64,000 nucleotides of DNA from Streptomyces sp. ISL-12 (lineage in GTDB: Bacteria > Actinomycetota > Actinomycetes > Streptomycetales > Streptomycetaceae). This document shows positions 6,969-29,206 of this stretch, in pieces; positions within the stretch are counted from its first letter, which is position 1; each line of letters starts with the position of its first letter. The notes below the pieces were generated by a model. The model was given only the letters and a program-made list of their open reading frames with translations. It had not been told where the DNA came from and did not search any database. Made by a program: the position numbers and the translations under genes. The stretch covers positions 124,001 to 188,000 of the forward strand of contig NZ_JAGGOO010000028.1 of the NCBI RefSeq assembly GCF_018614415.1, written 5' to 3'.

Positions 6969-7000
6969 CGGGGTGCGGCCGGACGTCCGGCCGCACCCCG
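6969..7000. terminator. 32-bp perfect palindrome, probable terminator
   Basis: Sixteen-base arms (CGGGGTGCGGCCGGAC and its complement) meet with no unpaired centre, just 14 bp after the VOC stop codon. No U-tract follows, which is normal for Streptomyces. It separates the VOC gene from the aldo/keto reductase gene. Confidence 0.7.
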
Positions 7001-11276: not shown

Positions 11277-11304
11277 GGGGGCGGGGGCCGCGGCCCCCGC
11301 CCCC
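11277..11304. terminator. 28-bp perfect palindrome, bidirectional terminator
   Basis: GGGGGCGGGGGCCG followed by its exact complement, in the 39-bp gap between two converging genes. Position and symmetry suit a terminator for both transcripts. Confidence 0.75.
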
Positions 11305-21648: not shown

Positions 21649-22023
21649 ATGTCCGCCACCGCCGTCGAAGGTCCCGATTTCGTCGCTCTCCAGGTGAGGG
21701 ACGTGCCCGCCGCGGCCGCGTTCTTCGAGGAGCGCCTCGGGCTGCGCCGGGCCCCCGCCTCGCCGCCTGGTGCGGTCGTCTTCGCCACCAGCCCGATCGC
21801 GTTCGCCGTCCGCGAGCCGCTGCCGGGCGTCGACCTCACCGGCGACGCGCGCCCCGGCCTGGGTGTCGCGCTGTGGCTGCGCACCCCGGACGCGGGCGCG
21901 GTGCGCGAGCGGCTCCTGGCGGCGGACACGCCGGACGTCGGCCCTCTCCAGGACAGCCCGTTCGGCCCGATGTTCTCCTTCACCGGCCCCGAGGGTTACC
22001 GGCTCACCGTGTACGGCGGCTGA
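21649..22023 (+). CDS. VOC-family (glyoxalase/bleomycin-resistance-like) protein
   Basis: 124 residues, a single VOC module pair: FVALQVRDVPAAAAFFEERLGLRRAP at the start, LGVALWLRTPDAGAVRERLLAADT in the middle, and FTGPEGYRLTVYGG at the end, with the Glu metal ligand position occupied. GGAGGAACC precedes ATG 21649. Such proteins bind or modify small electrophiles or drugs. Divergent from its probable MarR repressor. Confidence 0.85.
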   Translation: MSATAVEGPDFVALQVRDVPAAAAFFEERLGLRRAPASPPGAVVFATSPIAFAVREPLPGVDLTGDARPGLGVALWLRTPDAGAVRERLLAADTPDVGPLQDSPFGPMFSFTGPEGYRLTVYGG

Positions 22024-22115
22024 CCGCGGGTGCCGCCGTCCTCACCCCCGGCGGTCCGTTCTCGCTCGGCGCCGCCGTGCGGCAGGGGCGGACGCGCGAG
22101 GGGAGTGGCGGCATC

Positions 22116-22158
22116 ACCGCCCACCCGGCCGGCCCGCACGGTCCGGCCGGTGGGCGGT
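22116..22158 (+). terminator. Hairpin downstream of the VOC gene
   Basis: ACCGCCCACCCGGCCGG and CCGGCCGGTGGGCGGT pair over 16 bp with one bulge around a 10-base loop, about 95 bp after the VOC stop. The right half is also part of the long inverted repeat shared with 22665-22713. Confidence 0.5.
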
Positions 22159-22181
22159 CATCGGCCGCCGGGTCCGGACGA
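22134..22181. repeat. Long inverted repeat, left arm
   Basis: These 48 bases are identical, on the opposite strand, to 22665-22713, except for one missing base (GGCCGGTGGG here, GGCCGGGTGGG there when both are read in the same sense). The arms enclose 483 bp. Confidence 0.8.
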
Positions 22182-22575
22182 GCCGCACCGCCGCCGTCAC
22201 CTCACCGCCCGCGCCGCGGACCCACGGCGCGGGCCTCCCGCGGTTCCGCCGGGCGCCCAGGCGCCCGGCGGCCAGGCCCACCGTCAGGCCGGCGAGCTGG
22301 AGCAGGGTGGTCACGAAGAGGAAGGTGCCGGACGGCGCGGACAGCAGCTCCGCCACCTGGGGTGCGACGAGCGCCCCGGTCAGCAGGAAGACGCAGCACC
22401 CCGCGGCCACCGCCAGGGTCCACCGCCGCGGCCGGAGGGCCACCAGCGCCGCGACGGCCCAGCAGAGGTGAGGGCCCGGCCCGTCGTACCCTGACCGGCG
22501 TCCGCCGCACCGGCCGCCGGCGGACCCGCGACGGCGGCGAGGGGCCCGCGGGTCTCCTCGATTCCGTCGGCGCGG

Positions 22576-22894
22576 TCATCGGCGTACCGCCGCCCGGCGC
22601 CTGCGCGCGAGCGCCGGCGCACCCGTCACGATCACCGCGACGACGGCCACGATCCGCAGCAGCGTCGTCCGGACCCGGCGGCCGATGACCGCCCACCCGG
22701 CCGGACCGTGCGGCCACGAACGCGAACCGTGGACGCATACAGAGCACCAGTCCGACGGCGAGCGGGACCAGCGGACCGGGAGGTGTCAGCGGGTGGTCCG
22801 CCCCGCCGATGATCTCGACGACGACCGCCGCCACCACGAGGAACTGCGCCGCGATGACGGCTTTCACAGTGTTCGGGTGGTTTTCCGTGTCCAT
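22576..22894 (-). pseudogene. Small membrane-protein gene with a one-base frameshift
   Basis: It begins MDTENHPNTVKAVIAAQFLVVAAVVVEIIGG, a clear membrane segment, then LVPLAVGLVLCMRPRFAFVAARSG. At the C-run around 22696-22698 the frame is lost; removing one base restores RWAVIGRRVRTTLLRIVAVVAVIVTGAPALARRRRAAVRR and a stop at 22576. The left arm of the inverted repeat carries this shorter, in-frame version, which supports one extra base here. Product unknown, probably a three-helix membrane protein. Confidence 0.6.
22665..22713. repeat. Long inverted repeat, right arm
   Basis: 49 bases, the reverse complement of 22134-22181 with a single inserted base. It lies inside the membrane-protein reading frame and carries its frameshift. 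Confidence 0.8.
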
Positions 22895-23045
22895 GGTGTC
22901 ACGCCAGGCCCGGACCCGGCCCGGTACGTCCTCCCAGGAGAGGCTCGCGCCCTGCTTCCCACGCGGTGGGGCCCGTTGCAGTGACCGAGACGGGCCCGGC
23001 TCGTTGACCGCCGGTAAAGCGTGACGACCAGGTGCGGGAGCAGAC

Positions 23046-23948
23046 GTGGAGTTCATCCATCACAGTGTCTTCGAAGGGTTCCGTTTCGGCTGCCGGGTGG
23101 TGGAGCAGCCGGCAGCCGAAACGGAACCGGTCGTGGTCCTGGGCGGGGCCTATCAGACCATGCATTCCAACCGGCGTTCCGAGCGGCCGTGGGCGCGCGC
23201 GGCGACCCTGGTCAACGTGGAACTGCCGGGACTGGGCACCGCGGACGACCTGCCGGCCGAGTACGGCTTCGACTTCATGGGCGACGCGCTGGGACATCTC
23301 CTGGACGAACTCGCCCTGGAACGCGTCAACATCATCGCCGTGTCCTACGGCACCGCCATCGCCTACCGCTACGCCCACCGCAACGCCGAACGGGTGGCCC
23401 GGCTGGCCCTGGTGGGGGCCACGCCCTCGTTGCCGGGGGACGCGCGGGCCACGGTGGAGGCGATGAGCCGGCTGCTGCGGACCGGCGACATGGCGGAGTT
23501 CGCGCGGCGCGCGGTCGACCTGCTGGTGTGCCGGCGCCCGGAGTGCCTGGCCGCGCATCCGCACAGCGCGGCCGAGGTGCTGCGCCGGGTCCTGGAGGCC
23601 GCCGACCCGCACGACGTGGAGCGCTACGCCGCCGCCAACGACCGCCTGCTGCGGCACCCCTTCGACCACCCGGAGGGCATCCGGGGGGTGCGGGCGCTGT
23701 GCGTGAGCGGGGAGCACGACCGGCTGTGCCCGCCGCAGCGCGCCCGTGCGGTCGCACAGAGCATCCCCGGCGCGGTGTTCACCACGATGAAGGGCAGCGG
23801 ACACGTCGTCCACCTGGAGCGGCCCAAGGACTTCAGCGATGTGCTGGCGCGCTTCCTGACCGACCGGGAACTGGCGGGACACCCCAGTCTGACCACGCTG
23901 GAACACGTACCGGCGGCGGACGAGGGGAAGACGCCCGTACGGGTGTGA
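23046..23948 (+). CDS. Alpha/beta hydrolase
   Basis: 300 residues. The nucleophile elbow is NIIAVSYGTAIAYRYA (Ser near residue 99; the first Gly of GxSxG is replaced by Ala), acid Asp in CVSGEHDRLCPP and His in KGSGHVVHLERP. A GTG start is preceded by GGGAG. Substrate unknown; relatives are lipase/esterase or haloalkane-type enzymes. Codons 11-28 contain a perfect 20-bp inverted repeat that would fold the start of the mRNA into a stable hairpin. Confidence 0.8.
   Translation: MEFIHHSVFEGFRFGCRVVEQPAAETEPVVVLGGAYQTMHSNRRSERPWARAATLVNVELPGLGTADDLPAEYGFDFMGDALGHLLDELALERVNIIAVSYGTAIAYRYAHRNAERVARLALVGATPSLPGDARATVEAMSRLLRTGDMAEFARRAVDLLVCRRPECLAAHPHSAAEVLRRVLEAADPHDVERYAAANDRLLRHPFDHPEGIRGVRALCVSGEHDRLCPPQRARAVAQSIPGAVFTTMKGSGHVVHLERPKDFSDVLARFLTDRELAGHPSLTTLEHVPAADEGKTPVRV
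23077..23128. repeat. 20-bp perfect inverted repeat inside the hydrolase gene
   Basis: The arm at 23077-23096 (GGTTCCGTTTCGGCTGCCGG) is exactly complementary to 23109-23128, with a 12-base loop. It starts 31 bases after the first base of the gene. Confidence 0.85.
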
Positions 23949-24000: not shown

Positions 24001-24734
24001 TCACCGGCCCGGGAGAGGCGGAGACCTGAGGAGCCGGAGCGCCGCGCAGCAGCCGAGGAACGCGGCGCAGCAGGACCACAGTCCGAGGGAGGTGAGGGGG
24101 ATGAGGCTCGTCGTGCGTCGGTGAAGACGCAGTCGACGTGCGGAGGCAGGAGACCGCGGTCGGTCGCCGCGACCTCGCCGGACGGTGCCGAGTGCAGACG
24201 GGCCACCTGCCACCGGAAGCACGCGTTGTGCAGCTCGGTGGCCGACATCCCCATGAGCGGCGACACTTGAGTGGCCCACAGGACGGCGGCCACCGCGGGC
24301 GCCAGCACCAGTCCCGCTCTGGCCCAGCGCGGCGCGCGGGACGGCAGGGCGGTCGCCCAGGCGACCGTCCCCGCCACCAGGAGCGCCGCGCCCCACCACA
24401 TCAGCCAGGTGCCGGCGGCTGTCGGATGGCTCGGCCCGTACGCCGACGAGTCCGACCAGTAGCACGACAGGTCAGGGGGGAACACGTCGGCACGGGCATG
24501 CCGCAGCGGGTAGTCGGCGTCGAGGGTCCGCTGCCCGCAGATCTCCGCGGACCGCGTCAGCGCGAACCCGTAGGCGAGCGTATGGGCGTATCCGAGGACG
24601 ACCAGGCACGCGCCCGCCACCCACCAGCTCAGGTGCCGCGGGGGACGCCGACGGCGCTTCCACAGCGCGTGACCGGCCACCCCGGCGGTCAGCCAGACCA
24701 CCAGCACCAGCCAGAGCAGAAGCCACGCGAACAC
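24001..24734 (-). pseudogene. Membrane protein with an apparent frameshift near 24115
   Basis: The N-terminal 210 codons encode four to five hydrophobic segments (VFAWLLLWLVLVVWLTAGV..., WVAGACLVVLGYAHTLAYGF, AGTWLMWWGAALLVAGTVAW, AGLVLAPAVAAVLWA) and a Cys-containing extracytoplasmic loop ending HVDCVFTDA. The rest of the membrane-like sequence (TSLIPLTSLGLWSCCAAFLGCCAALRLLRS...) is in another frame and stops at 24001. A one-base change at about 24113-24117 would join them. GTG 24734 has AAGGAGG 6 bp upstream. Broken gene or sequence error; function unknown. Confidence 0.6.
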
Positions 24735-24819
24735 CTGCCGCCTCCTTGGTCTCCCCATGAGACGGAAAAGGTCACGTCCGTGGTTGCGGCGGCCGCTGCG
24801 GTGAGCGTCACCGAGGCGC

Positions 24820-26049
24820 TCAGGCGCGCATTCCGAACAGGAAACGGGTCACCCGGGCGCGGCGGACCAGCAGTTCGTAGGCGGCGACCGTGAGCGGCAG
24901 GGCGATCGCCACGAGGACGGCGTACTCGACCGGGATCGGGGCCGGCCAGCCGGTCACGAAGTAGGCGACGGCGACCACGACCGGCTGGTGCAGGACGTAC
25001 AGGGGCAGCACGGCGGCGGCGAGACAACCGTGAAGGCGCCGCCGTGCCGTCGCTGCCGGCACCGGTCGCGGCTGCGGTTCCGGTGCGGTGTCGGGCGGCC
25101 GTCGGGTGCGGCGGCGGTCCAGGAGGCCGGGGACGGCGACCACCAGGCACCATCCGGACGCCCCGAACAGCGCCCGCGCGACGGTGGCCTGCGCGCCGGT
25201 GTCCGTGAAGGGCTCCTCGGCGACGGCGAACCCGGGACCGGCCCCCGCGAACAGCAGCACACCGAGCCAGGCCGCGGGCACCGCCGACTCCCGCACCGCG
25301 GCACGGAAGCGGTCGTCGGCGGCGAGCGCGAACCCGGCCAGGAAGAACAGCAGGTACGACCAGCGGTGCCAGCCCGCGTAGTTCTCCTCCATCTTCCCGA
25401 AGGCGCAGATCGCCGAGGTGCCGAGGGCCGGCAGGAGCACCACGCCACGGCGGCGCGCGGCGGTCCGCGCCGCACGGTCGCGGGCACGGCGCAGCCACCC
25501 GCGCGGCAGCCACCGGTGCAGCGGCGCCAGCAGGAGCGAGAACGCCAGGAGCAGCACGACGAACCAGAGGTGACCGGTCTCGAAGTACTCGCCCTGCACG
25601 ATGAACGGCACCTCGTCGAATTCCAGCCGCACGTCGTAGAAACGGGGCAGGAAGCCGAGGTACGACCCGTGGTGGTCCGCGCCGGCCGCGCGTTGCCGCA
25701 GCCACTGCGGCAACGGGTTCAGCACCAGGGTCGCGAACACCAGCGGGACGCCGAGCCGCAGCAGACGCTCCCGGGCGAAGCCGCCCGCGCCACGGCGGCG
25801 CAGCGAGTACCAGGCGCCGAGCCCGGAGATGAGGAACAGCAGCGGCATCGCCCAGACGACCCCGAACCCGGCGACGATCAGCACGGCCTCGCTGGTCTCG
25901 GCGTTCTTGACGTAGAAGTCGTCGTCCGCGGCGAAGACCAGCGCCGAATGGAAGAAGACCAGCCCGATCACGATCAGCATCCGGATCACGTCCAGCTCCG
26001 GCCGCCGCTGCGGCGACTGTCCCCGTGCGGGATGCGTGTGCGTCGCCAT
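24820..26049 (-). CDS. Acyltransferase-3 family membrane protein
   Basis: 409 residues with about ten transmembrane helices. It starts with the family signature ELDVIRMLIVIGLVFFHSALVF (active-site-like His in FFHSA), then AMPLLFLISGLGAWYSLRRRG and a later GHLWFVVLLLAFSLLLAPL. Acyltransferase-3 proteins move acyl groups onto extracytoplasmic glycans, lipids or antibiotics; the acceptor cannot be predicted. Divergent from the ankyrin-GNAT gene. Confidence 0.88.
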   Translation of the reverse strand: MATHTHPARGQSPQRRPELDVIRMLIVIGLVFFHSALVFAADDDFYVKNAETSEAVLIVAGFGVVWAMPLLFLISGLGAWYSLRRRGAGGFARERLLRLGVPLVFATLVLNPLPQWLRQRAAGADHHGSYLGFLPRFYDVRLEFDEVPFIVQGEYFETGHLWFVVLLLAFSLLLAPLHRWLPRGWLRRARDRAARTAARRRGVVLLPALGTSAICAFGKMEENYAGWHRWSYLLFFLAGFALAADDRFRAAVRESAVPAAWLGVLLFAGAGPGFAVAEEPFTDTGAQATVARALFGASGWCLVVAVPGLLDRRRTRRPPDTAPEPQPRPVPAATARRRLHGCLAAAVLPLYVLHQPVVVAVAYFVTGWPAPIPVEYAVLVAIALPLTVAAYELLVRRARVTRFLFGMRA

Positions 26050-26141
26050 GCCGGCCCCCCGTCGCCCCGACTGCCCCCACTGTCGACGGACCGGCGGCCG
26101 GACGCCAGGGAAGAACGCACTACCGTGTCCGTGTGATCACC

Positions 26142-27254
26142 ATGGAATGGGACTGCCTCACCGACCGCGACCGCTTCAACGACCGGTACGTGGCGGAGCG
26201 GGACCGCTTCGCGGACGCGGCCCGGGACGCCGACTGGAACGGCGTGTTCGACCGGTTGGGCAAGCATCCGGGGTGGGCCAACCTGCCCCGGCCCGGCAAC
26301 CGCAGCGGTTTCGCCCCGCTGCACCAGGCGGCCTGGCACGGCGCGGACTTCGCCGTCGTCTCCCGGCTGATCGCGCACGGCGCCTGGCGCACCCAGCGCG
26401 CCCGGGACGGGCGGCGCCCCGTGGACGTCGCGCGGGAGCGGGGGCACACGCGTCTGCTCCAGCTCCTGGAACCGGTCCAGGTGCGCCGCCTCCCCGGCCC
26501 CGAGGACGTGCTGGAGCACCACTTCCACACCCTGCTGCGGGAACGCACCGGCACCTGCTTCCAGCAGACCGAGTACCTGCTGCCACCGCTGACCCCGCTG
26601 ACGGAGGGCCCGGCCGTGGCGATGACGTTCACGGTGATCGGCATGATGGGCGGCTTCACCTACCGCCTGGACGAGAACTCCCTGCGCGTGCACGGCCACT
26701 CGCGCATGGACGCCGACGACGGGGACCACTACCGCGTGACGGCCACGGGCTGGTCCAGGATCGAACGCCGGCCCGTGCCGGCGTCGTCGACGACGACGAT
26801 CCGTCCCGCGACCGCGCGGGACGCGGCGGTGATCGCACGGATCCACCTGGACTCCCGGGCCGCGACGATGCCGTACCTGCCCCCGCCGCGCCACGGCCAC
26901 GAGGACGTCACCCGGTGGATCGAGGACGTGGTGCTCAAGACGTGCCGCGTGTGGGTGGCGGTACGGGGGACCGAGGTCGTCGGCTACGCCGCCCTCGAAG
27001 GAGACATGCTCGAACACCTGTATCTGCGGCCGGACGTCCGCCGCCGGGGCATCGGCACGCTCCTGCTCGACGAGGCCCGACGGCACAGCCCGCACGCCCT
27101 GTCCCTGTACGTCTTCCAGCGCAACACCGAGGCGCGCGCGTTCTACGAGCGCCACGGCTTCCGCGTCCTCGACACGAGCGACGGCGGCCGGAACATGGAG
27201 AACCTGCCCGACATGACGCTGCGCTGGACGGCGTCACCGGACCCCGCGCCCTGA
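26142..27254 (+). CDS. Ankyrin-repeat protein fused to a GNAT acetyltransferase
   Basis: About 370 residues. The first part has ankyrin-type repeats (GFAPLHQAAWHGADFAVVSRLIAHGAWRTQRARDGRRPVDVARERGHTRLLQLL, residues 55-110) and a family-specific region through FTVIGMMGGFTYRLDENSLRVHGHSR. After a short linker (PVPASSTTT) comes a full GNAT domain (TIRPATARDAAVIARIH..., acetyl-CoA loop LRPDVRRRGIGTLLLDEAR, ending FYERHGFRVLD). The ankyrin part may choose the protein or DNA-associated partner and the GNAT part modify it. A GTG three codons upstream is an alternative start. Confidence 0.8.
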   Translation: MEWDCLTDRDRFNDRYVAERDRFADAARDADWNGVFDRLGKHPGWANLPRPGNRSGFAPLHQAAWHGADFAVVSRLIAHGAWRTQRARDGRRPVDVARERGHTRLLQLLEPVQVRRLPGPEDVLEHHFHTLLRERTGTCFQQTEYLLPPLTPLTEGPAVAMTFTVIGMMGGFTYRLDENSLRVHGHSRMDADDGDHYRVTATGWSRIERRPVPASSTTTIRPATARDAAVIARIHLDSRAATMPYLPPPRHGHEDVTRWIEDVVLKTCRVWVAVRGTEVVGYAALEGDMLEHLYLRPDVRRRGIGTLLLDEARRHSPHALSLYVFQRNTEARAFYERHGFRVLDTSDGGRNMENLPDMTLRWTASPDPAP

Positions 27255-27293
27255 GGCGGTCACCGGCCGGCCGCCCGGGGAAGGGCACTCTCC

Positions 27294-28196
27294 TCATCCG
27301 CCGCGCAGGTGGTCGTGGAGGGTGCGTGCCACCCGGGCCATCAGCGCCTCGGCGGCCGGCTGGAGCACGGCCGGGACCGTGGACTCGGTCAGCGCGACCA
27401 CGGCGAGCGTGTCACCGTCGTCGTGCTCGACCACGCCCGCCTCGTGCCGGAGGTTCAGCAGGGTGCCGGTCTTGGACGACCACGTCGAGGCGTCGGAGGA
27501 GAAGTCGGGCGCCAGCCGGTGCCGGATGACGTTCTGGCCCATCAGGGAGCGCACCCGGGAGGCCACCTCCGCCGGGATGCGCGAAGGCGTCCACAGTGCC
27601 TGGAGCAGGTCGGCGAAGGCCCGCGCGGAACCGGAGTTGGCCCGGCTCACGTCGAGCTGCGGGACCGGATGCCCGCCGCCCGCCGTCCGGGACCCGATCG
27701 CCAGTGAGTGGGCGAGGTGCGCGTCACCGGGCCCGAGCCGCTCGGCGGGGGTCTCCACCAGGTCGCGCATGCGGTGCCGTACCGCGAGACCGGTGACGCC
27801 CGCATCCCGTACGGTCCGGTGCACCTCGGCGGGCGGTACCAGGTCGAACAGGGCGTCCGCGGCGGCGTTGTCGCTGACGGACGTGGACAGGTAGAGCAGG
27901 TCGTCCACGGCCACCCGCGCGGGGTGCCGGAACCGGCTGAGTCCCGTCGGCCCCGGGGAGGTGACCTGCCCGGGGGCCACCTCCACCGTCGTGGCGCCGT
28001 CGAGCGCCCCGCGGTGGACCCGCTCCAGCACGGCGACGGCGAGGGCGACCTTCACCAGGGACGCGACGGGGAACTCCCGGTCCGCGTCGACGCCGATCTC
28101 CTCGCCCGTCGACAGGTCCCGGACCAGGAAGGAGCCCGACAGACCCGCGTCGGCGAGCATTCCCCGTGCTTGCCTGACCACGCGTTCGGTACTCAA
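27294..28196 (-). CDS. blaB: BlaB-like penicillin-recognising regulator of beta-lactamase induction
   Basis: 300 residues with class-A beta-lactamase motifs SLVK (SxxK), SDN (SVSDNAAADALFD) and KTG (SSKTGTLLN), but no signal peptide, so it is cytoplasmic. This and its position next to a LysR gene and a divergent beta-lactamase match blaB of Streptomyces cacaoi, required with blaA for induction. TTG is the start: GAGGAGG is 7 bp upstream and the TTG overlaps the blaA stop (TTGA), indicating coupled translation. The longer upstream frame is antisense noise. Confidence 0.85.
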   Translation of the reverse strand: MSTERVVRQARGMLADAGLSGSFLVRDLSTGEEIGVDADREFPVASLVKVALAVAVLERVHRGALDGATTVEVAPGQVTSPGPTGLSRFRHPARVAVDDLLYLSTSVSDNAAADALFDLVPPAEVHRTVRDAGVTGLAVRHRMRDLVETPAERLGPGDAHLAHSLAIGSRTAGGGHPVPQLDVSRANSGSARAFADLLQALWTPSRIPAEVASRVRSLMGQNVIRHRLAPDFSSDASTWSSKTGTLLNLRHEAGVVEHDDGDTLAVVALTESTVPAVLQPAAEALMARVARTLHDHLRGG

Positions 28197-29122
28197 GCGC
28201 CGTCCTCCTCGGCGCCGTTCCGCTCCGCGCTGTCCGCCGCCGAGCCGTCCGCCTCCGCGCCGAGGGCCCGTGCCACCTGCGCCCCCAGACCCTCGCGCAC
28301 CCGTTCCGCGTCGTCGCCCGTCAGCGCCGCGACCCCGTACCCGCGCACGACGGCCTCGCCCGCGAGCGGACGCCACCGCAGCCCCAGTTCCGCCGCCTGC
28401 GGCCGGGGGCAGAGCAGGAGGTCGTCCGTACGCAGCGTCTCCGACACCGCTTCGACCAAGGACGCGGCGACGGTGATCTGGGCCGGGACGAGCGCGGCCC
28501 GGTGGCCGAGCTGCTCCAGCCGGTCCCGGATGTGCGGTACGTCGTCCTCCGGCTGGATCCGCAGCCGCCGGAACCCGGGCTGCGCCCGCCCGGGCCGCAG
28601 GGTCTCCAGCCGCAGCGGCTTGACCGGCGCGTCGCCACCGGCCCGGGACGCGACGCCGAGCGGCACGGTCCAGTCGGCCTCGTCCCGGGGCAGCGCGAGG
28701 AGCGCGGCGCGCACGTCGTGGGAGCGGAGCAGCTCCGCGCGTTCCGCCGGCCCCGCGGGGCGCAGGTCCAGGACGGTGCCCTGGTCCCGGGCGGCCGCGT
28801 CGAGCAGCGCCAGCCGCCGCACCGGGCAGGTCCGGGGCACCGCGAGACCGAACGGCCGCAGCCTGGCCCGCTCGGCGTCGTACTCCATCGCCTCCGCGAG
28901 CCGCACCAGCCGCTTCGCGGACGGCAGCATGTCCCGCCCGAACACGGTCAGCGTGGCGCGCCGCGTCGTGCGGTCGAAGAGCCGCTCCCCGAAGTGCCGT
29001 TCCAGCGCCGCGATCCGCCGGCTGGCCACGGACTGCGGCACCCGGGCCGCCGCGGCACCGAGCGTGAAGCTGCCGCGTTCACTGACGTGCACGAACACCC
29101 GGCAGGCACTGACGAGATCCAC
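28193..29122 (-). CDS. blaA: BlaA-like LysR-family activator
   Basis: 309 residues with the LysR helix-turn-helix at the N-terminus (ACRVFVHVSERGSFTLGAAAARVPQSVASRRIAALERHFGERLFDRTTRR, residues 6-55) and a co-inducer domain after it. The last 20 residues are Glu/Ala-rich. It is divergent from the beta-lactamase gene and overlaps blaB by 4 bp; both features match the S. cacaoi blaA-blaB locus, where BlaA activates the beta-lactamase promoter. A T-N11-A palindrome lies in the shared 84-bp promoter. Confidence 0.88.
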   Translation of the reverse strand: MDLVSACRVFVHVSERGSFTLGAAAARVPQSVASRRIAALERHFGERLFDRTTRRATLTVFGRDMLPSAKRLVRLAEAMEYDAERARLRPFGLAVPRTCPVRRLALLDAAARDQGTVLDLRPAGPAERAELLRSHDVRAALLALPRDEADWTVPLGVASRAGGDAPVKPLRLETLRPGRAQPGFRRLRIQPEDDVPHIRDRLEQLGHRAALVPAQITVAASLVEAVSETLRTDDLLLCPRPQAAELGLRWRPLAGEAVVRGYGVAALTGDDAERVREGLGAQVARALGAEADGSAADSAERNGAEEDGA

Positions 29123-29132
29123 GGCACCCGAG

Positions 29133-29153
29133 CCTATGCCACAAACGCATGGG
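29133..29153. promoter_or_regulatory. LysR (T-N11-A) site between blaA and the beta-lactamase gene
   Basis: CC-t-ATGC-N7-GCAT-g-GG with a T-N11-A core (29137-29149). It starts 11 bp after the blaA start and is about 55 bp upstream of the beta-lactamase start, where BlaA is expected to bind. Confidence 0.6.
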
Positions 29154-29206
29154 AACCCTCATTTCTGTCTTTGCCCGCATGACCGGGCCGCTGACAGGCT
29201 CCTCAC

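Follow-up and report, generated by a model that had tools for sequence, protein, structure and literature searches.

The 64,000-nt stretch of Streptomyces sp. ISL-12 DNA analysed here (the window) contains, between an intact glyoxalase-family gene and an intact alpha/beta hydrolase gene, a long inverted repeat set among what appear to be the remains of a DNA glycosylase gene, read on the plus strand, and of two membrane-protein genes, A and B, read on the minus strand. The features are, in order of position:

21649 to 22023, plus strand: intact glyoxalase-family gene (PF00903, E 7.8e-8)
22024 to 22082, plus strand: relic of the glycosylase N-terminus, LTPGGPFSLGAAVR (HMM score 19.1, reached by 0 of 1000 shuffles)
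22038 to 22980: segment of 943 nt without a counterpart at the syntenic locus of Streptomyces griseoviridis JCM 4250 (the alignment breaks off at 22037 and picks up again at 22981)
22068 to 22133, plus strand: possible second glycosylase relic, AAVRQ...ITAHPAG, weak (HMM domain conditional E 0.023)
22113 to 22161: strong imperfect hairpin, between the glyoxalase gene and the left arm and taking in part of the latter (22105 to 22170 folds at -30.8 kcal/mol as DNA, z -5.41)
22134 to 22181, plus strand: left arm of the inverted repeat, 48 nt, with glycosylase codons PYEAAAWAVIGHRVR, one base under the glycosylase register; presumed source copy
22182 to 22231, plus strand: glycosylase relic past the left arm (22151 to 22231 against relative G181, 77% nucleotide identity over 82 nt)
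22237 to 22491, minus strand: remnant of membrane gene B, family positions 52 to 127 (HMM E 2.8e-12)
22576 to 22664, minus strand: putative C-terminal remnant of membrane gene A, family positions about 107 to 132, in another frame (HMM 7.5 bits)
22665 to 22713, minus strand: right arm, 49 nt, an inverted glycosylase fragment in gene A, in register with PYEAAAWAVIG
22714 to 22894, minus strand: N-terminal part of membrane gene A, family positions 20 to 68 (HMM E 2.3e-11)
23046 to 23948, plus strand: intact alpha/beta hydrolase gene, beyond the segment

The two arms are reverse complements of each other except for one base in the C-run at 22696 to 22698, and they enclose a spacer of 483 nt (22182 to 22664), just as an earlier reading made from the letters of this DNA (hereafter, the sequence-only reading) had described. 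Within the arms, perfect pairing extends over blocks of 33 nt and 17 nt, and no other exact inverted repeat of the window matches the former in length. When the window was simulated 30 times with a first-order Markov model, the longest such repeat within 2 kb measured 14 to 18 nt; the inverted arms are far beyond chance. A search of the own genome (8.39 Mb, a draft assembly in 217 contigs) matched the arms with E 1.9e-15, while the next match, at E 2e-5, was weaker by ten orders of magnitude, among the 40 first-look candidates scored out of 748. Outside the own genome, a DNA search of 61 genomes yielded weak short matches alone. Two tight palindromes, at 6969 to 7000 and 11277 to 11304, come next in length among the exact inverted repeats of the window.

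Sequence comparison identifies the arms as a coding fragment of an AlkA-like DNA glycosylase gene. At the position of the arm, the glycosylase of relatives reads SPYEAAAWAVIGHRVR, and relative G181 is identical to 22151 to 22199 of the window at 44 of 49 nt. A glycosylase HMM, built from 7 of the 10 orthologue loci (the three that lack the PFSL motif used for trimming were left out), gave the reading of each arm a score that 0 of 1000 shuffles reached. In G181, the matching stretch sits inside a complete gene directly after MarR-like and glyoxalase genes, the same order as in the window. The protein encoded there matches two PDB entries, 2yg8 (DNA-3-methyladenine glycosidase II, E 1.2e-11) and 1diz (3-methyladenine DNA glycosylase II, E 2.3e-9), and also NF007641 (E 6e-12, yet far under the family cut-off); Pfam returned nothing at or above cut-off for it. 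Orthologues at E 1e-50 or better were found in 10 of the 362 genus genomes searched, among them none in the own genome, which elsewhere carries a homologue of 31% identity. At all ten orthologue loci, a glyoxalase match (partial in two cases) lies upstream of the glycosylase. The sequence-only reading had placed the right arm within a broken membrane-protein gene, which agrees with our analysis, and had also regarded the arm as membrane-gene sequence, which the G181 alignment and the HMM rule out.

Of the glycosylase gene itself, the window retains no more than relics. The match of the N-terminal relic begins at 22014, inside the end of the glyoxalase gene, and 22000 to 22081, glyoxalase end included, is 80% identical to G181 at the nucleotide level over 82 nt. 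The weak middle relic has a score that 7 of 1000 shuffles reach, for a tested piece (22068 to 22151) that overlaps the left arm, while the score of 22151 to 22231 is reached by 0 of 1000. Third-position GC on the plus strand moves from the glyoxalase frame to two other frames across the relic stretches. The hairpin at 22113 to 22161 has a further similarity: the region of its left stem is like the right arm in direct orientation (86% of 29 nt).

On the opposite strand, the reading frames at 22894 to 22700 (65 residues) and 22491 to 22237 (85 residues) both match a family of membrane proteins of ~130 residues. Piece A has matches in 8 and piece B in 9 of 392 genus genomes, the own genome included in both counts, and the HMM of the family comprises 8 sequences, two of them identical, from 11 loci tried (3 gave no match). 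Since the family positions of the two pieces overlap (20 to 68 and 52 to 127), A and B represent two gene copies. The C-terminal remnant of gene A was outscored by 3 of 1000 shuffles (one shuffle unreported by the program), a modest match for a short piece. In comparison with distant relatives, the right arm, together with five to six unaligned residues before it, occupies the place of family positions about 69 to 106; it would thus replace about 33 to 38 residues of gene A, by eye the third transmembrane segment. For gene B, we noted a frame change upstream, in that an ATG at 22579 overlaps the gene A stop while the family match lies in another frame. Both genes of this tandem look decayed.

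Pfam gave nothing above its cut-offs for the membrane genes, and a search of plasmids with the family gave no match. A TIGR03382 match in NCBIfam on piece B (15.9 bits against a cut-off of 15.85, E 0.015, 20 residues) was taken as a chance hydrophobic match, and TIGR02206 on a relative of the membrane genes (G011) reached 13.5 bits, below its NCBIfam cut-off of 75. Neither A nor B was found, at E 1e-3, in any of 13 stretches comprising the 10 orthologue loci and three from G181 and S. griseoviridis. Likewise, an undamaged gene A at the same place was seen in none of 392 genus genomes (own included; two first-look candidates scored per genome).

For the hydrolase gene, a search of a named genome collection that reaches close relatives only returned a single relative, S. 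griseoviridis JCM 4250 (contig BMSM01000002.1). This contig is syntenic, with about 87 to 88% DNA identity on both sides of the 943-nt segment that it lacks. The window stretch from 24014 to 29164, about 5 kb, does not align to it either, about 2.8 kb of other sequence being present there; the region is therefore variable beyond the 943-nt segment. We also observed that the start of the hydrolase gene contains a perfect 20-nt inverted repeat (23077 to 23096 and 23109 to 23128), of which 15 of 20 positions pair in S. griseoviridis, all five differences being on the right arm. No relative carrying the 943-nt segment was found among 392 genus genomes, and a repeat of the genus search centred on G157, taken to be the S. 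griseoviridis record (372 genomes), added none to the two relatives already found. A literature search by title or abstract opening, with terms that named neither locus nor genes, returned no paper on the locus, a result that makes no claim about what is in print.

The flanks of the arms bear on which of the two is the original. The downstream flank of the left arm (22182 to 22231) is glycosylase-like, with a score that 24 of 851 control offsets reach. In contrast, the right arm has no glycosylase-like sequence on either side (88 and 245 of 851 offsets in gapped comparison, 633 and 711 of 851 ungapped), and the idea that a longer glycosylase sequence extends beyond the right arm gained no support from this offset test. 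Because only the left arm continues into glycosylase-like sequence, we take it as the probable source and the right arm as its inverted copy. Upstream of the left arm, the flank (22098 to 22133) shows no likeness to the glycosylase where one would expect it (478 of 851), which we put down to deletions within the relic.

The single-base difference can be read in the same terms. On the minus strand, gene A reads in frame 0 before the right arm and in frame 1 after it, and a hypothetical right arm of 48 nt would bring both parts into one frame. From this the sequence-only reading had concluded that the extra base breaks the gene, that the left arm keeps the in-frame form and that the repair of the frame by the other arm is a rare internal control. 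However, when the opening 18 nt of the right form are set against the PYEAAA codons of the 10 orthologues, on average 10.6 of 18 positions agree (background 6.16, sd 2.01), while in the one-base-shifted register, as in the 48-nt form, agreement falls to 5.7 of 18. In 50 of 10000 draws from 187 shared offsets the value of 10.6 was reached, equivalent to about one offset, for a test that rests on 18 nt. Of the two forms, only that of 49 nt stays in the glycosylase register, and for this reason it is most likely that the copy was made at 49 nt and that the left arm later lost one base. A 48-nt arm would indeed join the gene A frames, but this apparent repair, the supposed internal control, is a one-in-three coincidence. 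The frame shift in gene A is real, but a foreign segment in place of residues, and not the base alone, would account for the break.

We also considered that there might be a deletion junction inside the left arm, at 22150/22151, which would assign its first 17 nt to the weak middle relic. The arm can be read as one continuous piece or as joined at this point, and both readings rest on few letters; we set the junction aside because, in the register test, the right form agrees with the PYEAAA codons over its opening 18 nt.

Taken together, we think it probable that the inverted repeat is a mutational scar, formed by break repair or a template switch in a stretch of decaying DNA that two intact genes enclose. 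On the plus strand, downstream of the glyoxalase gene, an AlkA-like glycosylase gene would have decayed to short relics, and a 49-nt piece of it would have been copied, in inverted orientation and about 0.5 kb away, into the converging gene A. A likely step is a break or collapsed fork in gene A that was repaired with a captured or copied fragment from nearby, via either Ku-type end joining or polymerase template switching, and the left arm, as the source, would have lost its one base afterwards. The sequence itself shows that the arms are identical but for the one base, that they come from a glycosylase gene, that further relic adjoins the left arm, that the right arm interrupts gene A and that the 49-nt form is in register. 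We infer both the repair event and this order of events, and we assume that neither the glycosylase nor gene A is functional any longer. A Ku gene is present in the own genome (one PF02735 match, E 2.3e-48). By eye, the present junctions show no clear microhomology.

The arrangement has the marks of such a scar. The insert is tens of bp long and recurs elsewhere in the same genome with its source kept, as a 49-nt and a 48-nt arm with one indel between them; the source lies 483 nt from the insertion, a proximity that is usual in published cases, if not required; and the target, gene A, is interrupted at the insert, to judge from distant relatives. In the part of the published work on Streptomyces ambofaciens considered here, scars of I-SceI break repair in the central chromosome held inserts of 42 and 83 bp from near the break and a third, of 30 bp, from the terminal repeat far away (PMC5869714). 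Our case resembles these in having tens of bp of own DNA at the putative repair point, two of the three described inserts likewise deriving from near the break; in contrast to these laboratory nuclease scars, it is old, natural and inverted, and the donor gene has decayed too (PMC5869714).

How the inverted copy was written is less clear. A strand that stalled during replication may have used the opposite strand about 0.5 kb off as a template and then returned, a version that we regard as possible at somewhat less than even chances and that is one form within the scar explanation, not an alternative to it. It would account for a copy that is both inverted and local, with a strong hairpin abutting the source; yet a distance of about 0.5 kb would exceed the hairpin scale of template switching, and the residues that gene A has lost at the insert are explained just as well by break repair. 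The stem in the hydrolase gene adds a further parallel, since all five of its S. griseoviridis differences fall on one arm, as in quasipalindrome switching (PMC7202029), but five differences in 20 nt are not extreme, given that other 20-nt windows of the hydrolase gene reach 9.

With quasipalindrome template-switch mutation, the locus shares the inverted copying of a neighbouring stretch; that process, however, perfects imperfect hairpins (PMC7202029), whereas 483 nt separate the present arms and the sequence on either side of the target bears no relation to the source. The arms therefore do not represent a close imperfect inverted repeat made more perfect. Similarly, short-range template switching and the homogenisation of arms are, in the sections of the two reports used here, local events between inverted copies or creating them, but were described there in yeast and great apes, while ours is a single bacterial pseudogene locus (PMC8604942; PMC7954356).

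We consider it rather unlikely that an error of sequencing or assembly is all that lies behind the one-base difference. The draft state of the assembly and the short C-run in GC-rich sequence would favour such an error, but the agreement of the 49-nt form with the glycosylase register makes the right arm, at least, look correct. In any case, a sequencing error in an arm would not change the scar reading.

A broader proposal concerns the 1.1-kb stretch from 22038 to 23130, which contains the arms, the abutting hairpin and the hydrolase stem and might be a small hotspot of inverted template copying. The last of these features would fit a quasipalindrome template-switch change. We hold the hotspot to be doubtful, with the chances well against it; if perfecting on one side were to recur in relatives, the locus would document template switching in Streptomyces as it occurs in nature.

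An invertible switch would require the interior (22182 to 22664) to flip between the arms, altering the expression or the ends of the membrane genes. Phase-variation invertons are invertible promoter or gene segments, and the present locus is like them in having inverted arms around a few hundred bp; in addition, arms of this length (48/49 nt) might on rare occasions allow inversion by homologous recombination. Unlike invertons, however, the locus has arms that are gene relics and stem from coding sequence, it ends in broken genes on both sides, and a single orientation is coherent. Both gene A (family positions 20 to 68, then about 107 to 132) and the glycosylase relic are collinear as they stand, which argues that the present orientation is ancestral. 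None of the 16 PF00589 and 5 PF00239 matches in the own genome, the two recombinase families searched, lies on the contig of the window (C140), though a recombinase of another family, or one encoded on a different contig, might act instead. Given the collinear genes and this lack of recombinase matches on the contig, a switch is very improbable, and the inversion of the interior that the sequence-only reading had envisaged finds no backing in the syntenic relative either, which is without the whole 943-nt segment.

The same reading had offered, as its other option, that one arm was copied, which we share, and that the left arm was the copy, taken from the membrane gene, which is hardly credible: the link that a 48-nt form would make between the two reading frames of gene A is outweighed by an arm that encodes glycosylase, by a left site that is the conserved place of that gene and by the left arm alone running on into its sequence.

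The locus thus illustrates that a striking inverted repeat, one arm of which seems to restore a reading frame, can turn out to be an accidental scar. Once the arm is recognised as part of a dead gene next door, the copying acquires a direction and the indel is read the other way round. If the scar reading is right, as we think probable, the repeat would be the equivalent in nature of the short inserts of nearby DNA that laboratory break repair has left in Streptomyces.
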